In this document: positions 2,103-11,491 of the stretch, piece after piece
How the letters are laid out: each line of letters begins with the position of its first letter
Position numbering within the stretch: position 1 is the first letter of the stretch
NCBI GenBank assembly: GCA_018671895.1
Contig: JABHGV010000005.1
Span: 1-43,290 of the forward strand
Source of the DNA: Rhodospirillaceae bacterium
GTDB lineage: Bacteria; Pseudomonadota; Alphaproteobacteria; Rhodospirillales; JABHCV01
Direction of reading: 5' to 3'
DNA length: 43,290 bases
The notes under the pieces: model-generated
Seen by the model: the letters and a program-made list of their open reading frames with translations, nothing else
What the model was told of the DNA's origin: nothing
Database searches by the model: none
Position numbers and translations under genes: made by a program

Positions 2103-2819
2103 CTAGTGAACGGCACCGATCTCGTCGAAAATCGCATCGATATTCATGAAGTGCGCATTGCGTCCTTCAAAATGCACCAGATTGTCTTCTTCAAGGTTGT
2201 TGATGGTGCGCGAAACGGATTCCGGTGTCACGGTGATCAACGATGCCAGGTCTTTTCTGGAAACCGGAATTTTCAGGACATAGCCCTTTTGATCATTGCC
2301 GTCGCCGTATTGATCGAACAGCACCATCAGGCAATGCAACAAGCGTGTCCTGACCTTCAGGTTTCGCGATCTGACAAGATTTTCCTCGGCCTCGTTCAGC
2401 TCGTTCAGGCTGCGGACCAGAAAACGCTCTCCGATAACCGGGTTGTGGGACAGTAAATCGGTGACAATTCTGCGCTCGATAAAGCAAATATGGCTCGGGG
2501 CCAGGATTTCCGCGTAGTGGCTGTGCTCGCTGTTACTCAGCAAAGCCCGATAGCCAATTGTTTCGCCGGGATTGCACAGCCGCAGCAGCGTTTCCTTGCC
2601 GTCGGCATCCAGTTGTCGAATGCCCACCAGGCCGGACTGGATGCAATATACCCCTTCGCTCTGATCGCCTTGCTGATAAATGATCTCGCCGGGCTCCCGA
2701 TCGCTGACCCGCTTGAAGCGATCGATCAGGTCCAGTTCTTCCTCACTTAAATCTTTCCACTCGGTATTTTGCCGGGTTGGACAGGCATTGCATTTCGAAT
2801 GAGAGCCGCTTTCGCTCAT
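2103..2819 (-). CDS. Crp/FNR-family transcriptional regulator, FNR-like but lacking one N-terminal cluster cysteine
   Basis: A 238-residue regulator with an N-terminal cNMP-type sensory fold (about residues 30-150) and a C-terminal winged helix (about 165-235). The recognition helix contains PESVSRTI, the E-x-x-SR pattern that in FNR reads TTGAT half-sites. It aligns without gaps to Escherichia coli FNR at the N-terminus: C10 and C13 match C20 and C23, and C112 (HICFIE) matches C122. Residue 19, where FNR has the cluster ligand C29, is threonine. It is therefore unclear whether it carries an oxygen-labile 4Fe-4S cluster. A perfect FNR palindrome lies 42 bp upstream, suggesting autoregulation. 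The start has a GAGGA ribosome binding site. Confidence 0.88.
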   Translation of the reverse strand: MSESGSHSKCNACPTRQNTEWKDLSEEELDLIDRFKRVSDREPGEIIYQQGDQSEGVYCIQSGLVGIRQLDADGKETLLRLCNPGETIGYRALLSNSEHSHYAEILAPSHICFIERRIVTDLLSHNPVIGERFLVRSLNELNEAEENLVRSRNLKVRTRLLHCLMVLFDQYGDGNDQKGYVLKIPVSRKDLASLITVTPESVSRTINNLEEDNLVHFEGRNAHFMNIDAIFDEIGAVH

Positions 2820-2860: not shown

Positions 2861-2874
2861 TTGATCACTATCAA
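2861..2874. promoter_or_regulatory. FNR box (TTGATCACTATCAA)
   Basis: A perfect TTGAT-N4-ATCAA palindrome, the consensus for FNR-type regulators. It sits between the FNR-like gene (start 2819, minus) and a small plus-strand gene (start about 2939), so it could control either or both. Confidence 0.85.
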
Positions 2875-3148: not shown

Positions 3149-3517
3149 CTAGGGAATTTGCACGGCGAAGGGGGCCGGGCTGTCGCCATGCACCTTGTCG
3201 TGGGCGACAATATGGACCTGTTTGACGCCAACTGGAATTTTAACCCCGCCAAGAGAGCGTGTGAACGGCTGTTCATTGACATGCGGGTGCGCCAATACGC
3301 GTGTGCCCAGCACAGCGCCGCCCGGCTCCAGCACGGACCAGCCGTCGGCATAATGATCCCAGCCGGAATCCGCATGGCGTAACGTTACCGAAAAATGATA
3401 AATGCCAGCGGTGCCTCGGACCTTTACATCGACAATCTTGACCTCGTCGGCCCATGCATCGCCCGAACCAACTGGCGTCATCAGCAGCATCGCCAGTAAT
3501 CCCATCCTTATCCACAT
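3149..3517 (-). CDS. Exported protein of unknown function, 122 aa
   Basis: This is a small periplasmic or secreted protein. It starts with a signal peptide (MWIRMGLLAMLLMTP, cleavage probably after AWA near residue 23). A single beta-rich domain follows, with segments such as VKVRGTAGIYHFSVTLRHAD, GWDHYADGW and QVHIVAHDKVHG. The pattern is that of small uncharacterised proteins seen next to redox or stress genes in marine alphaproteobacteria. I know no function for it. The start at 3515-3517 was chosen because a strong GAGGTGG ribosome binding site lies eight bases upstream; the longer frame lacks one. It converges with the small gene ending at 3139. Confidence 0.8.
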   Translation of the reverse strand: MWIRMGLLAMLLMTPVGSGDAWADEVKIVDVKVRGTAGIYHFSVTLRHADSGWDHYADGWSVLEPGGAVLGTRVLAHPHVNEQPFTRSLGGVKIPVGVKQVHIVAHDKVHGDSPAPFAVQIP

Positions 3518-3660
3518 AGTGTTTTCCACCTCTATGGTTTGCCCATGTGATGCCCTGATTTTTATCGCCCGCGGTCCACTTTGGCCAATCAAACAGGCGT
3601 GATCGCATATCCTCTATAAAATCACTATATATCTGTTTTTATTTGATTATCTAATTCATG

Positions 3661-8075: not shown

Positions 8076-8101
8076 AATCTTTGAAGTCGGGCCCTTGCGG
8101 G

Positions 8102-8644
8102 TTAACGTTTCGAGAACTGGAAGCTACGGCGCGCCTTGGCACGGCCATACTTCTTACGTTCAACGACACGCGAGTCACGGGTCATAAAGCCACCCTTCTT
8201 GAGCACGCCACGCAGCGCCGGCTCGAAGTTGACCAACGCACGGCTGAGGCCATGACGGACGGCACCCGCCTGTCCGGACAAACCACCACCGGTAACGGTG
8301 CAGGTAATGTCATACTGGCCTTCACGCTCGGTAACGGCAAAGGGCTGATTGATGATCATACGCAGCACCGGACGGGCGAAATAAACTTCCACATCGCGGC
8401 CATTGACCGTGATCTTGCCGGTACCCGGCTTGATCCAGACGCGCGCAATGGCGTTCTTGCGCTTGCCGGTGGCATAGGCGCGACCCAGATCGTCGATTTT
8501 CGGCTCAACCGGTGCGACGGTGGTTTCTTCGCTGGCCACTTCGGCTGCCGGTGCTTCTTCAGCGACCGGGGCTGCGGCGGCAGCGGCAGATGCTTCGACC
8601 ACGTCCTTCAGGTCGGCGAGCGTTGCTTTTACTTCATCAGCCAT
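8102..8644 (-). CDS. rpsI: Small-subunit ribosomal protein S9, with N-terminal extension
   Basis: Ribosomal protein S9 of the 30S head. The conserved domain starts near residue 55 ([17 protein letters not shown]) and runs to the invariant C-terminal [11 protein letters not shown] tail that reaches the P-site tRNA. It is preceded by about 50 residues rich in alanine, glutamate and valine, making the protein 180 aa rather than about 130. Such acidic/alanine extensions are seen in Rhodospirillales S9 proteins, which supports the taxonomic guess. It is three bases downstream of rplM, the universal L13-S9 operon, and is followed by a strong terminator. Confidence 0.97.
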
Positions 8645-8647
8645 GGA

Positions 8648-9112
8648 TTAGGCGCTCCTCTTGTTCTTCGTGTTCATAGCGGCGACGTCCAACGGAGTTG
8701 GGTTCTGCGCACCATGGGGATGTTCGGCGCTGGCATAGACGTGCAGTTTAGTCATCTGCCTGCGTCCCAGCGGGTTGCGCGAAATCATCCGCTCTACAGC
8801 CTTGATGACGACGCGTTCAGGATGATTGCCATCCAGAACCTTGCCAGCGGTGACACTCTTGATGCCACCCGGATGGCCGGTGTGGTGGTAATAAACCTTG
8901 TCGGTACGCTTGCGACCGGTCAGTTGCACCTTGTCGGCGTTGATGACGATAACGTTGTCGCCACAATCCATGTGCGGTGTGTACATGGGCTTGTGCTTGC
9001 CACGCAGGCGCATGGCGATAATGCTGGCCATACGGCCGAGTACTAGGCCTTCAGCGTCGATTACGAGCCAGTCCTGCTGGATATCCGACGGTTTGGCGGA
9101 ATAGGTTTTCAT
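8648..9112 (-). CDS. rplM: Large-subunit ribosomal protein L13
   Basis: Ribosomal protein L13, an early assembly protein of the 50S subunit, 154 residues. Recognised by [34 protein letters not shown], the [10 protein letters not shown] motif and [17 protein letters not shown]. The start at 9110-9112 ([12 protein letters not shown]) matches the family and has AAGGA upstream; the longer reading frame is not used. It is the first gene of the rplM-rpsI operon, with a near-consensus promoter about 70 bp upstream. Confidence 0.97.
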
Positions 9113-9219: not shown

Positions 9220-9396
9220 CCGGAACTTTCCGAAAAAAATCAATAATTTCCATACCTTAGAAGAACGGTATAATAATACCCTGATCTATCTGTCTATCCC
9301 CTCATTCAGACCACGGTTGACGGCAAGCATGGCAAATTCTGGCGAATCTTATATTCTTGTACCCAGAGGCAATAATTGTTTCACGGGGCAACACGG

Positions 9397-9876
9397 ATGG
9401 CGTTTCTAGACTGGAAAAATGAATTCAACACCGGCATTGAAGCCATTGATACTGATCACAAATTTTTGGTCAGCCTGATCAATCAGCTGGACGAGGCCCT
9501 CAGGGATGGACAAAACCAGGAAGTCGTCGGAAGCGTGCTCAACGCCCTGTACGATTACACCAATTATCATTTCCTGCGCGAAGAAAAGATGATGAAGGCC
9601 TGTGGCTATACCGACGAGAAAGAACACGCTGCGCAGCATCAGGACTTGAAAACGCAGGTCATGGAAGCCCGCGATGCCTACCTGAAACAACAAACTGACG
9701 ACATTAAGCAGCCCGTTATGGACTTTATGAAAACCTGGCTCGCCGATCATATTCTGGGCCATGACATGCAATATGTGTCGTCCATGCTTGCAAATCGTGA
9801 CGCCGCCGAGAACGCGGCCCGCATCTTCGATAACAACAAGGACTGGATGCTGACCGAAAACGGTGACGTGCAATGA
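9397..9876 (+). CDS. Bacteriohemerythrin
   Basis: A 159-residue single-domain hemerythrin that binds O2 at a di-iron centre, probably for O2 delivery or sensing. All expected ligands are visible: H21 (IDTDHK), H58 and E62 (HFLRE), H77 and H81 (HAAQH), H118 and D123 (HILGHD). It starts with the family-typical MAFLDWKNEFNTGI; the frame extends seven codons further, but this start fits better. A TATAAT at 9269-9274 lies upstream without a good -35. The gene overlaps the CoA-binding gene by four bases (ATGA), so they form one operon with the K+ channel. A second hemerythrin is at 25256. Confidence 0.93.
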   Translation: MAFLDWKNEFNTGIEAIDTDHKFLVSLINQLDEALRDGQNQEVVGSVLNALYDYTNYHFLREEKMMKACGYTDEKEHAAQHQDLKTQVMEARDAYLKQQTDDIKQPVMDFMKTWLADHILGHDMQYVSSMLANRDAAENAARIFDNNKDWMLTENGDVQ

Positions 9877-10307
9877 GTGTCCCCCCTGCCCCCAGCGACG
9901 AGCTACTGCGAAGCATTCTTGGTTCGGTCAAGACCATCGCCCTTGTCGGCGCTTCGCCTAAGCCGCATCGCCCATCGAACCGGGTTATGCGGTTTTTGAT
10001 GGACAAGGGGTATCACGTGATACCCATCAACCCCGGTCTGGCCGGAGGCGAAATCAATGGCGAGAAGGTCTATGAGACTCTCACGGACATTCCAGACACC
10101 ATCGACATGGTCGATATTTTCAGGCATCCCGACGCCGTCGGCGAAATTGTCGACGCCGCCATTACACTGGCACCGGACAAGGGCATCCGGGTAATTTGGA
10201 TGCAACTGGACGTTATTGCGCCAGAAGCGGCCGCGCGTGCCGATGATGCCGGATTGACGGTCGTCATGGACCATTGCCCGAAGATTGAATATGAACGCCT
10301 GATGTAA
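9873..10307 (+). CDS. CoA-binding domain protein (YccU-like)
   Basis: A 144-residue Rossmann-type CoA-binding protein. It shows IALVGASPKPHRPSNRVMRF (nucleotide-binding loop), then GYHVIPINPG, then DMVDIFRHPD and IRVIWMQLDV, the series of motifs of the stand-alone CoA_binding_2 family. The family resembles the CoA-binding part of succinyl-CoA synthetase, but its physiological role is unknown. It overlaps the hemerythrin gene by four bases and lies 14 bp before the channel gene, which argues for co-expression. Confidence 0.9.
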   Translation: MSVPPAPSDELLRSILGSVKTIALVGASPKPHRPSNRVMRFLMDKGYHVIPINPGLAGGEINGEKVYETLTDIPDTIDMVDIFRHPDAVGEIVDAAITLAPDKGIRVIWMQLDVIAPEAAARADDAGLTVVMDHCPKIEYERLM

Positions 10308-10321
10308 CTACAGGACCTGAA

Positions 10322-11491
10322 ATGGCAGAACGGCTGAAAATATCGGTCTACAACATCATCGAAGCCAGCGTTAAAAGCGACTGGCGGGGCCGCTGGTTCG
10401 ACATTTTCATGATGGTCCTGATTATTACCAACGTCATCGCCGTGGTGTTGGAAACTGTGCCATCGCTGGGCGCGGCTTACGAAGCGCAGTTCAATGCCTT
10501 CGATATCTTTTCTGTCATCATTTTTACCACTGAATATCTGCTCAGGCTGTGGGTGTGTACGGAAAATCAGCTTGAAGGATACGGCCATCCGATCGCAGGC
10601 CGCCTGAAATATATGGTTACGCCTATGGCGCTGATCGACTTTGTCGCCATCGCGCCGTTCTATCTGGCCATGTTCATCAGCGTCGATCTTCGCTTCATGC
10701 GAGTCTTCAGGTTGCTCAGGCTGTTGAAGCTGACCCGCTATTCGCCAGCTATCGAAACCTTCGCTGCGGTCATCGCCAGCCAAAAACGGGCTTTGGGGGC
10801 AGCGTTGCTGGTGATGATCATCATGTTGGTGTTTGCATCGTCCATTGTTTACCTGTTCGAAAAAGACACCCAGACGGAAACCTTTGCCAGTATTCCTCAC
10901 GCCATGTGGTGGGGGCTGGCGACCCTGACCACCGTCGGCTATGGCGATGTCACCCCGATCACCCCCTATGGCCGCATCTTCGGCGCATTCATTATGATTT
11001 TAGGCGTCGGCATGTTCGCCCTGCCCGCTGGTATCCTGACATCAGGATTTACCCGCGAATTGCGCAAGCGCGACTTTGTCATCACCTGGCGGCTGGTCGC
11101 CGCTGTGCCATTATTCGCCAATCTGGACGCCTTGAAAATCTCGGAAATATCGTCGCAACTGCATCCGAAAATGGTGCCGCCCCGCTTCGCCATCGTCAAA
11201 CGCGGCGAGTTTGCGGACTCCATGTATTTTATCGTCTCGGGCGAGGTCGAGGTCGATCTTCACCCGACGCCGAAAATACTGTCGAGCGGCGACTTCTTTG
11301 GCGAGATCGCGCTTATGAAAGACTGTGAACGCACGGCGACAATCACCACCTTGACCGAATGCCAGTTGCTGTCCCTGGAAGCACACGACTTCCACCGGCT
11401 TCTTAACGCCCATCCGGAGCTACGCGCGCCTATCGAAAAGAAAATGCAATTGCGTGTGGAAGAGCTGGAAGCGTCTGGACAAACACACTAA
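10322..11491 (+). CDS. Cyclic-nucleotide-gated potassium channel (MloK1-like)
   Basis: A 389-residue six-transmembrane K+ channel with a cytoplasmic cyclic-nucleotide-binding domain, the architecture of Mesorhizobium MloK1. Helices S1-S4 occupy about residues 30-150; S4 carries regularly spaced arginines (RFMRVFRLLRLLKLTR). The pore loop has the canonical filter TTVGYGDV. The C-terminal domain (about 255-380) includes SGDFFGEIALMKD and ERTATI, whose glutamate and arginine contact the cyclic nucleotide. It is the last gene of the hemerythrin operon. The stop overlaps the convergent VOC gene by four bases. Slightly longer than MloK1; otherwise complete. Confidence 0.93.
   Translation: MAERLKISVYNIIEASVKSDWRGRWFDIFMMVLIITNVIAVVLETVPSLGAAYEAQFNAFDIFSVIIFTTEYLLRLWVCTENQLEGYGHPIAGRLKYMVTPMALIDFVAIAPFYLAMFISVDLRFMRVFRLLRLLKLTRYSPAIETFAAVIASQKRALGAALLVMIIMLVFASSIVYLFEKDTQTETFASIPHAMWWGLATLTTVGYGDVTPITPYGRIFGAFIMILGVGMFALPAGILTSGFTRELRKRDFVITWRLVAAVPLFANLDALKISEISSQLHPKMVPPRFAIVKRGEFADSMYFIVSGEVEVDLHPTPKILSSGDFFGEIALMKDCERTATITTLTECQLLSLEAHDFHRLLNAHPELRAPIEKKMQLRVEELEASGQTH

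Follow-up and report, generated by a model that had tools for sequence, protein, structure and literature searches.

We propose that the window (the whole 43,290-nucleotide stretch analysed here) encodes an anaerobic activator of the FNR type that would regulate its own gene and bind a [4Fe-4S] cluster with C10, C13, C59 and C112, a reading to which we assign a probability of about 0.5. Oxygen switching by a [4Fe-4S] cluster has its textbook example in FNR, and the annotation of oxygen sensors makes use of the FNR ligand set. The parts of the proposal that the sequence supports are the predicted fold, the DNA-recognition residues, an FNR box at the gene, the lack of cysteines at positions 19 and 22, and a family-wide linkage between C59 and the N-terminal CxxC motif.

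A CRP/FNR regulator and its cysteines

The gene and the residues on which the argument turns are the following (basis in brackets):

2103..2819, minus strand: gene of a CRP/FNR-family regulator, 238 aa, ATG start (ORF; Pfam; orthologue at 83% identity)
2781..2792, minus strand: C10-x2-C13 motif, matching FNR C20 and C23 (CxxC in 77/95 family members)
2763..2765, minus strand: Thr19, aligned with FNR C29 (Thr/Ser in 62/77 CxxC members and 13/18 CxxC-less members)
2754..2756, minus strand: Lys22, at the place of a third N-terminal Cys (TEWC) in 46/77 CxxC members (alignment)
2643..2645, minus strand: Cys59, the proposed fourth ligand, in beta strand 56-70; E. coli-type FNR has Ala here (model, family alignment, tree test)
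2574..2576, minus strand: Cys82, in 6/95 members, five of them from the clade of the window protein (family alignment)
2484..2486, minus strand: Cys112, in beta strand 102-115, matching FNR C122 (alignment, model)

The regulator is a member of the CRP/FNR superfamily: it has both the beta-barrel and the HTH_Crp domain, with Pfam matches above cut-off to cNMP_binding (PF00027, 64.6 bits) and HTH_Crp_2 (PF13545, 43.9 bits). Its AlphaFold2 model (24 aligned sequences as input; pLDDT 88.5, pTM 0.81) superposes over residues 7-238 on residues 17-247 of Aliivibrio fischeri holo-FNR 9qll (VIA-align: Z 24.7, rmsd 2.7, 226 aligned, 21% identity across the structural alignment), and Foldseek also gave matches for the model. 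Because VIA-align matches further CRP-family chains to the model as well as it does holo-FNR, the fold by itself does not single out FNR.

The sensor domain of the regulator aligns with that of E. coli FNR (whose cysteine numbers match those in an excerpt of PMC5398030) with the FNR numbering running ahead by 10 throughout, which pairs C10 with C20, C13 with C23, T19 with C29 and C112 with C122. An earlier note, made from the sequence alone, had described this pattern of three matched cysteines and a threonine at the C29 place, and the alignment confirms it. That the threonine might be a sequencing error, as the note had also considered, is unlikely, and so is a pseudogene, because an 83%-identical orthologue in another genome likewise has Thr19 (plus C10, C13, C59 and C112) and the substitutions between the two show purifying selection (dN 0.10, dS 1.45, dN/dS ~0.07).

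The TEW family

We coined the name TEW family for 95 distinct sequences that score at least 180 bits against the family profile. The window protein belongs to this family both by its profile score (325 bits, the profile having been built with the window protein included) and by its C10-C13-C59-C112 quartet. Its 83% orthologue is found in one of five other genomes of the same taxonomic family; matches at E 1e-20 or better occur in 80/297 genomes order-wide, and 11/385 genomes class-wide and, with the relative L030 as query, 5/398 genomes phylum-wide contain a match. A scan of a contig collection gave nothing with the single sequence and 28 loci with the alignment. Most of the named relatives belong to MAGs assigned to Rhodospirillales or to Alphaproteobacteria, and some to Contendobacter and further Gammaproteobacteria. 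The family is uncharacterised and has its centre in Alphaproteobacteria of the Rhodospirillales type.

Most members carry the N-terminus CxxC-x(5)-T/S-E-W. The E. coli spacing C-x2-C-x5-C, by which the earlier note had judged the protein, is therefore not that of its family: when homologues are aligned at residue 19, a check the note had proposed, Thr or Ser is the usual residue and Cys occurs in 0/95. Read from this alignment, T19 is part of a conserved T-E-W stretch and not a lost cysteine. In many members, a third N-terminal cysteine stands instead at position 22 (C-x2-C-x8-C). Homologues thus do have the shifted cysteine that the note had envisaged, but it does not rescue the window protein, where position 22 is Lys (Asn in the 83% orthologue), so that C22 is absent in both. 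The six-member clade of the window protein (SH-aLRT 99) is mixed in this respect: C22 is present in L086 and L087 and missing from the remaining four.

Cysteine 59 tracks the CxxC motif

C59 is present in 74/77 members with the CxxC and in 1/18 members without it, and no other column in the range 14-229 reaches the mutual information that column 59 shares with the motif (0.586). C112 occurs in 77/77 CxxC members as against 16/18 CxxC-less ones, and 13/18 of the latter retain C10, which means that both can be retained where the motif is absent. Correlated evolution was assessed with shared ancestry taken into account, by comparing the fits of a dependent and an independent two-state model on a family tree built leaving out residues 1-22 and the cysteine columns; on this tree position 22 changes ten times, positions 59 and 13 five times each, and position 112 twice. 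C59 ranked first of 201 testable columns (LR 22.3; runner-up 16.1), with a nominal chi2(4) p of 1.8e-4 that becomes borderline once corrected for ~200 columns x two residues tried. The independent events behind the linkage are few: an independent-pairs test found 3 pairs on well-supported branches, a number at which significance is out of reach. Other candidates for a CxxC-coupled residue were rejected, namely C22, C54 and C82 (LR 4.3, 2.2 and 4.0) and C38 (LR 7.6). T19 and E20 were likewise rejected as O-ligands: they do not track the CxxC (E20 is found in 60/77 CxxC members vs 15/18 CxxC-less ones), and their LR values are 3.9 and 2.5, each the better of two residue states tried.

Among CxxC members lacking C22, C59 is found in 29/31, and the remaining two, L147 and L151, have R59; since they keep the CxxC and C112 with neither C59 nor C22, three cysteines may suffice. 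Among CxxC members that have C22, C59 is present in 45/46, so that C59 is no clean replacement of C22. The single exception, L120, has Tyr59 and retains four cysteines through C22; it offers a natural contrast for the interchangeability of C22 and C59. In canonical FNR sequences with a third N-terminal Cys, column 59 is Cys in 0/22 (7 with x5 and 15 with x7 spacing), and two of these (L201, L219) have a Cys two residues before that column. Outside the TEW family, C59 occurs in L155 and L167 among 35 lower-scoring sequences. A separate CRP/FNR group (L198, L200 and the sequences with 'CxIRxxALFADL') has the CxxC and C112, Thr59 and no third N-terminal Cys; lacking both C59 and the third Cys, it indicates that three-cysteine FNR-like proteins also exist outside the TEW family.

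In the jelly-roll order of the domain, strands 56-70 and 102-115 are neighbours. Judged from the strand positions in the model and from this topology, C59 could therefore face the same site as C112. The earlier note had presented the protein as missing a cluster cysteine: C29 is indeed absent, but the description is probably wrong, given that C59 tracks the CxxC. Its suggestion that another ligand might be used is plausible, with C59, which it did not mention, as the candidate.

DNA recognition and genomic setting

Two further features concern DNA binding:

2208..2222, minus strand: E200-S203-R204, DNA-recognition helix (translation, alignment)
2861..2874, no strand assigned: perfect FNR box TTGATCACTATCAA (start codon 41 bases downstream; the orthologue is preceded by an identical one)

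In 24 aligned sequences E200 and R204 are invariant and S203 is nearly so, in agreement with the earlier note, which had called the DNA-reading helix FNR-like. Perfect boxes lie upstream (up to 310 bases) of 14/94 family genes vs 0.02% of shuffles, and boxes with at most one mismatch upstream of 34/94 vs 1.15% (exactly one: 1.13%), the control being 50 letter shuffles per upstream region; as the 94 genes are related, they do not amount to 94 independent cases. At the sequence level, recognition residues and boxes speak well for the FNR-type DNA recognition predicted for the regulator.

The window genome contains 10 perfect boxes, six inside ORFs and four between genes, and the genome of the orthologue contains 9. 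The four intergenic boxes are at this gene, at nosZ/SCO1, at nirS (cytochrome d1)/tetrapyrrole methylase, and at nnrS/FGE-type gene; the nirS, nosZ and nnrS sites are at G000:C49:46351, C27:7288 and C86:5997 (L180, L177 and L184), respectively. With NirS and NosZ, the organism is probably a denitrifier. It also has a cbb3 oxidase gene; the 4.4 kb ccoN locus contains no perfect box, and the closest match upstream of ccoN deviates at two positions. Neighbours of family genes include HemN, NiFe hydrogenase, molybdopterin oxidoreductase, NrfD and Usp/CBS, each cluster at 3 to 9 of 95 loci, and suit an anaerobic regulator. The earlier note had wondered about a signal other than oxygen; nothing points beyond oxygen, NO or redox, and boxes and neighbours speak of anaerobic respiration.

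A second, complete FNR, for which the note had advised a search, was not found in the 98.5%-complete assembly (2.5 Mb, 98 contigs): three proteins pass the HTH_Crp_2 cut-off, and the other two are without an N-terminal CxxC. A second CRP/FNR protein, on contig C86 and lacking the CxxC, lies near nnrS and has an E-SR helix, and for these reasons may share or own some of the box targets. Within the window itself, ORFs 3149-3592 and 8081-9046 have no Pfam match, one of them sharing the strand of the regulator gene and lying immediately upstream of it; on the plus strand at 9376-11491, genes follow in a row for a hemerythrin-domain protein, a CoA-binding protein and a cyclic-nucleotide-gated-type ion channel (Ion_trans + cNMP_binding).

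Proposed mechanism

The regulator would act as a homodimer that is active at low oxygen, oxygen being the presumed signal. When oxygen is absent, a [4Fe-4S] cluster would be bound by C10 and C13 from the N-terminal loop and by C59 and C112 from neighbouring barrel strands. Oxygen or NO would then destroy the cluster, which could weaken the dimer and abolish DNA binding. The active dimer would bind TTGAT-N4-ATCAA, including at its own promoter, and its likely targets would be the denitrification genes nirS, nosZ and nnrS, perhaps shared with the second, cysteine-poor CRP/FNR protein.

Alternative ligand sets and sensing modes

How else could the cysteines be used? C10, C13 and C112 could be the only cysteines that bind a [4Fe-4S] or [3Fe-4S] cluster, the fourth site being open or filled by a residue other than Cys, and we regard this as possible but improbable. 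Such an arrangement has been suggested for the Acidithiobacillus ferrooxidans FNR, which according to an excerpt of PMC6659574 has Cys only at 20, 23 and 122 and still functions in E. coli, and has been shown for the Bacillus subtilis Fnr, which uses Asp141 (cited in PMC3520743, in excerpt); within the TEW family, L147 and L151 have C10, C13 and C112 but neither C22 nor C59. However, the nearby candidates T19 and E20 fail to track the CxxC, and a highly conserved C59 is on hand. A regulator with no Fe-S cluster at all, in which the CxxC and the barrel cysteines meet oxidants directly as a thiol/disulfide switch, is an unlikely option. A switch of that kind reportedly operates in the Lactobacillus FLP. 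The pairs C10/C13 and C59/C112 would suit disulfides, and C183 of FixK2 is a non-cluster redox cysteine (PMC12937710, in excerpt); yet the CxxC and C112 of the window protein are exactly at FNR ligand positions, and no CxxC member of the family is without C112.

Loss of the cluster, leaving the regulator constitutive or with another effector in the barrel, is quite improbable for the window protein. The CxxC is absent in 18/95 family members, from which it follows that cluster loss or replacement probably does occur in the TEW family, but here the 83% orthologue retains each of C10, C13, C59 and C112 under strong purifying selection. Least probable of all, and hardly to be expected, is that C82 rather than C59 is the fourth ligand: five of the six members with C82 belong to the clade of the window protein (L001, L006, L082, L086, L087), but L085, of the same clade, has neither C82 nor C22 and yet has C59, while L086, L087 and L039 combine C82 with C22.

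A second cysteine set in CxxC-less members

CxxC-less members have C38 in 16/18, C54 in 15/18 and C112 in 16/18, and in 11 of them the set is exactly C10, C38, C54 and C112, as though the first ligand set had given way to another (CxxC-less examples are L007, L009, L010, L013, L042, L047, L121-L124, L126 and others). All six cysteines C10, C13, C38, C54, C59 and C112 are present in 15 family members, and tree-aware support for C38 is weak (LR 7.6). The strands of C38, C59 and C112 should be neighbours in the barrel. Tentatively, and with the odds clearly against it, one could imagine that ligands migrate within the CRP/FNR fold, from C10/C13/C22 (+C112) through C10/C13/C59/C112, the set of the window protein, to C10/C38/C54/C112, the members with both sets being intermediates.

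Comparison with known systems

With the FNR of E. coli and Aliivibrio fischeri the window protein shares the fold, the C20/C23/C122 equivalents, the E-SR recognition residues and the FNR box. There are a number of differences: (i), E. coli-type FNR has four cluster cysteines (C20, C23, C29 and C122), whereas the window protein has three of them and Thr at the C29 place; (ii), column 59 is Ala in E. coli-type FNR and Cys in the window protein; (iii), the window protein reaches 59.6 bits with the NCBIfam Fnr model, for which the cut-off is 228. With FnrN, FnrL and FnrP of Alphaproteobacteria it has in common the N-terminal CxxC, the bacterial class and the box type. The third Cys of FnrN/FnrL, shifted by two residues relative to E. 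coli FNR (PMC7713065, in excerpt), falls at column 21 (C-x2-C-x7-C), where the window protein has Trp21, and the score with the NCBIfam FnrL model is 74.8 bits vs a cut-off of 300. A Pro after the CxxC is found in FnrP (excerpt of PMC4771820) and often in the TEW family, including Pro14 directly after C13 of the window protein. According to the same excerpt FnrP is about six times slower with oxygen than E. coli FNR (PMC4771820); by analogy, Pro14 may slow the reaction with oxygen in the window protein.

An FNR lacking C29 is already known, from A. ferrooxidans (AFE_0270). As far as excerpts of PMC6659574 report, this protein has Cys at 20, 23 and 122 only of the four, drives an FNR-dependent promoter in E. 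coli and is unusually air-stable; its authors proposed Ser29 as ligand and disfavoured Cys40. Like the window protein it has no Cys at 29 and a short N-terminus, with Ser at 29 where the window protein has Thr. In B. subtilis Fnr the [4Fe-4S] ligands are C-terminal cysteines and Asp141 (cited in PMC3520743, in excerpt), a set that differs from that of E. coli FNR, as the one proposed for the window protein would, and that differs from the latter in these very ligands. DNR/FixK-type regulators resemble the window protein in fold and in their similar DNA boxes, but, to go by excerpts of PMC7713065 and PMC5398030, the N-terminal cluster cysteines are absent from them, unlike in the window protein.

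No description of a TEW(C) FNR group or of a column-59 ligand was found in the open PubMed Central literature, searched by title and abstract start; as far as that search shows, the TEW(C) family and the C59/CxxC linkage are new. If C59 is a ligand, an entire group of denitrifying and hydrogen- or sulfur-metabolising bacteria would have cluster sensors that a check for C29 scores as broken. A cysteine in the barrel where FNR has Ala70 would moreover be a testable explanation of how FNRs that lack C29, the A. ferrooxidans protein among them, might keep their cluster.
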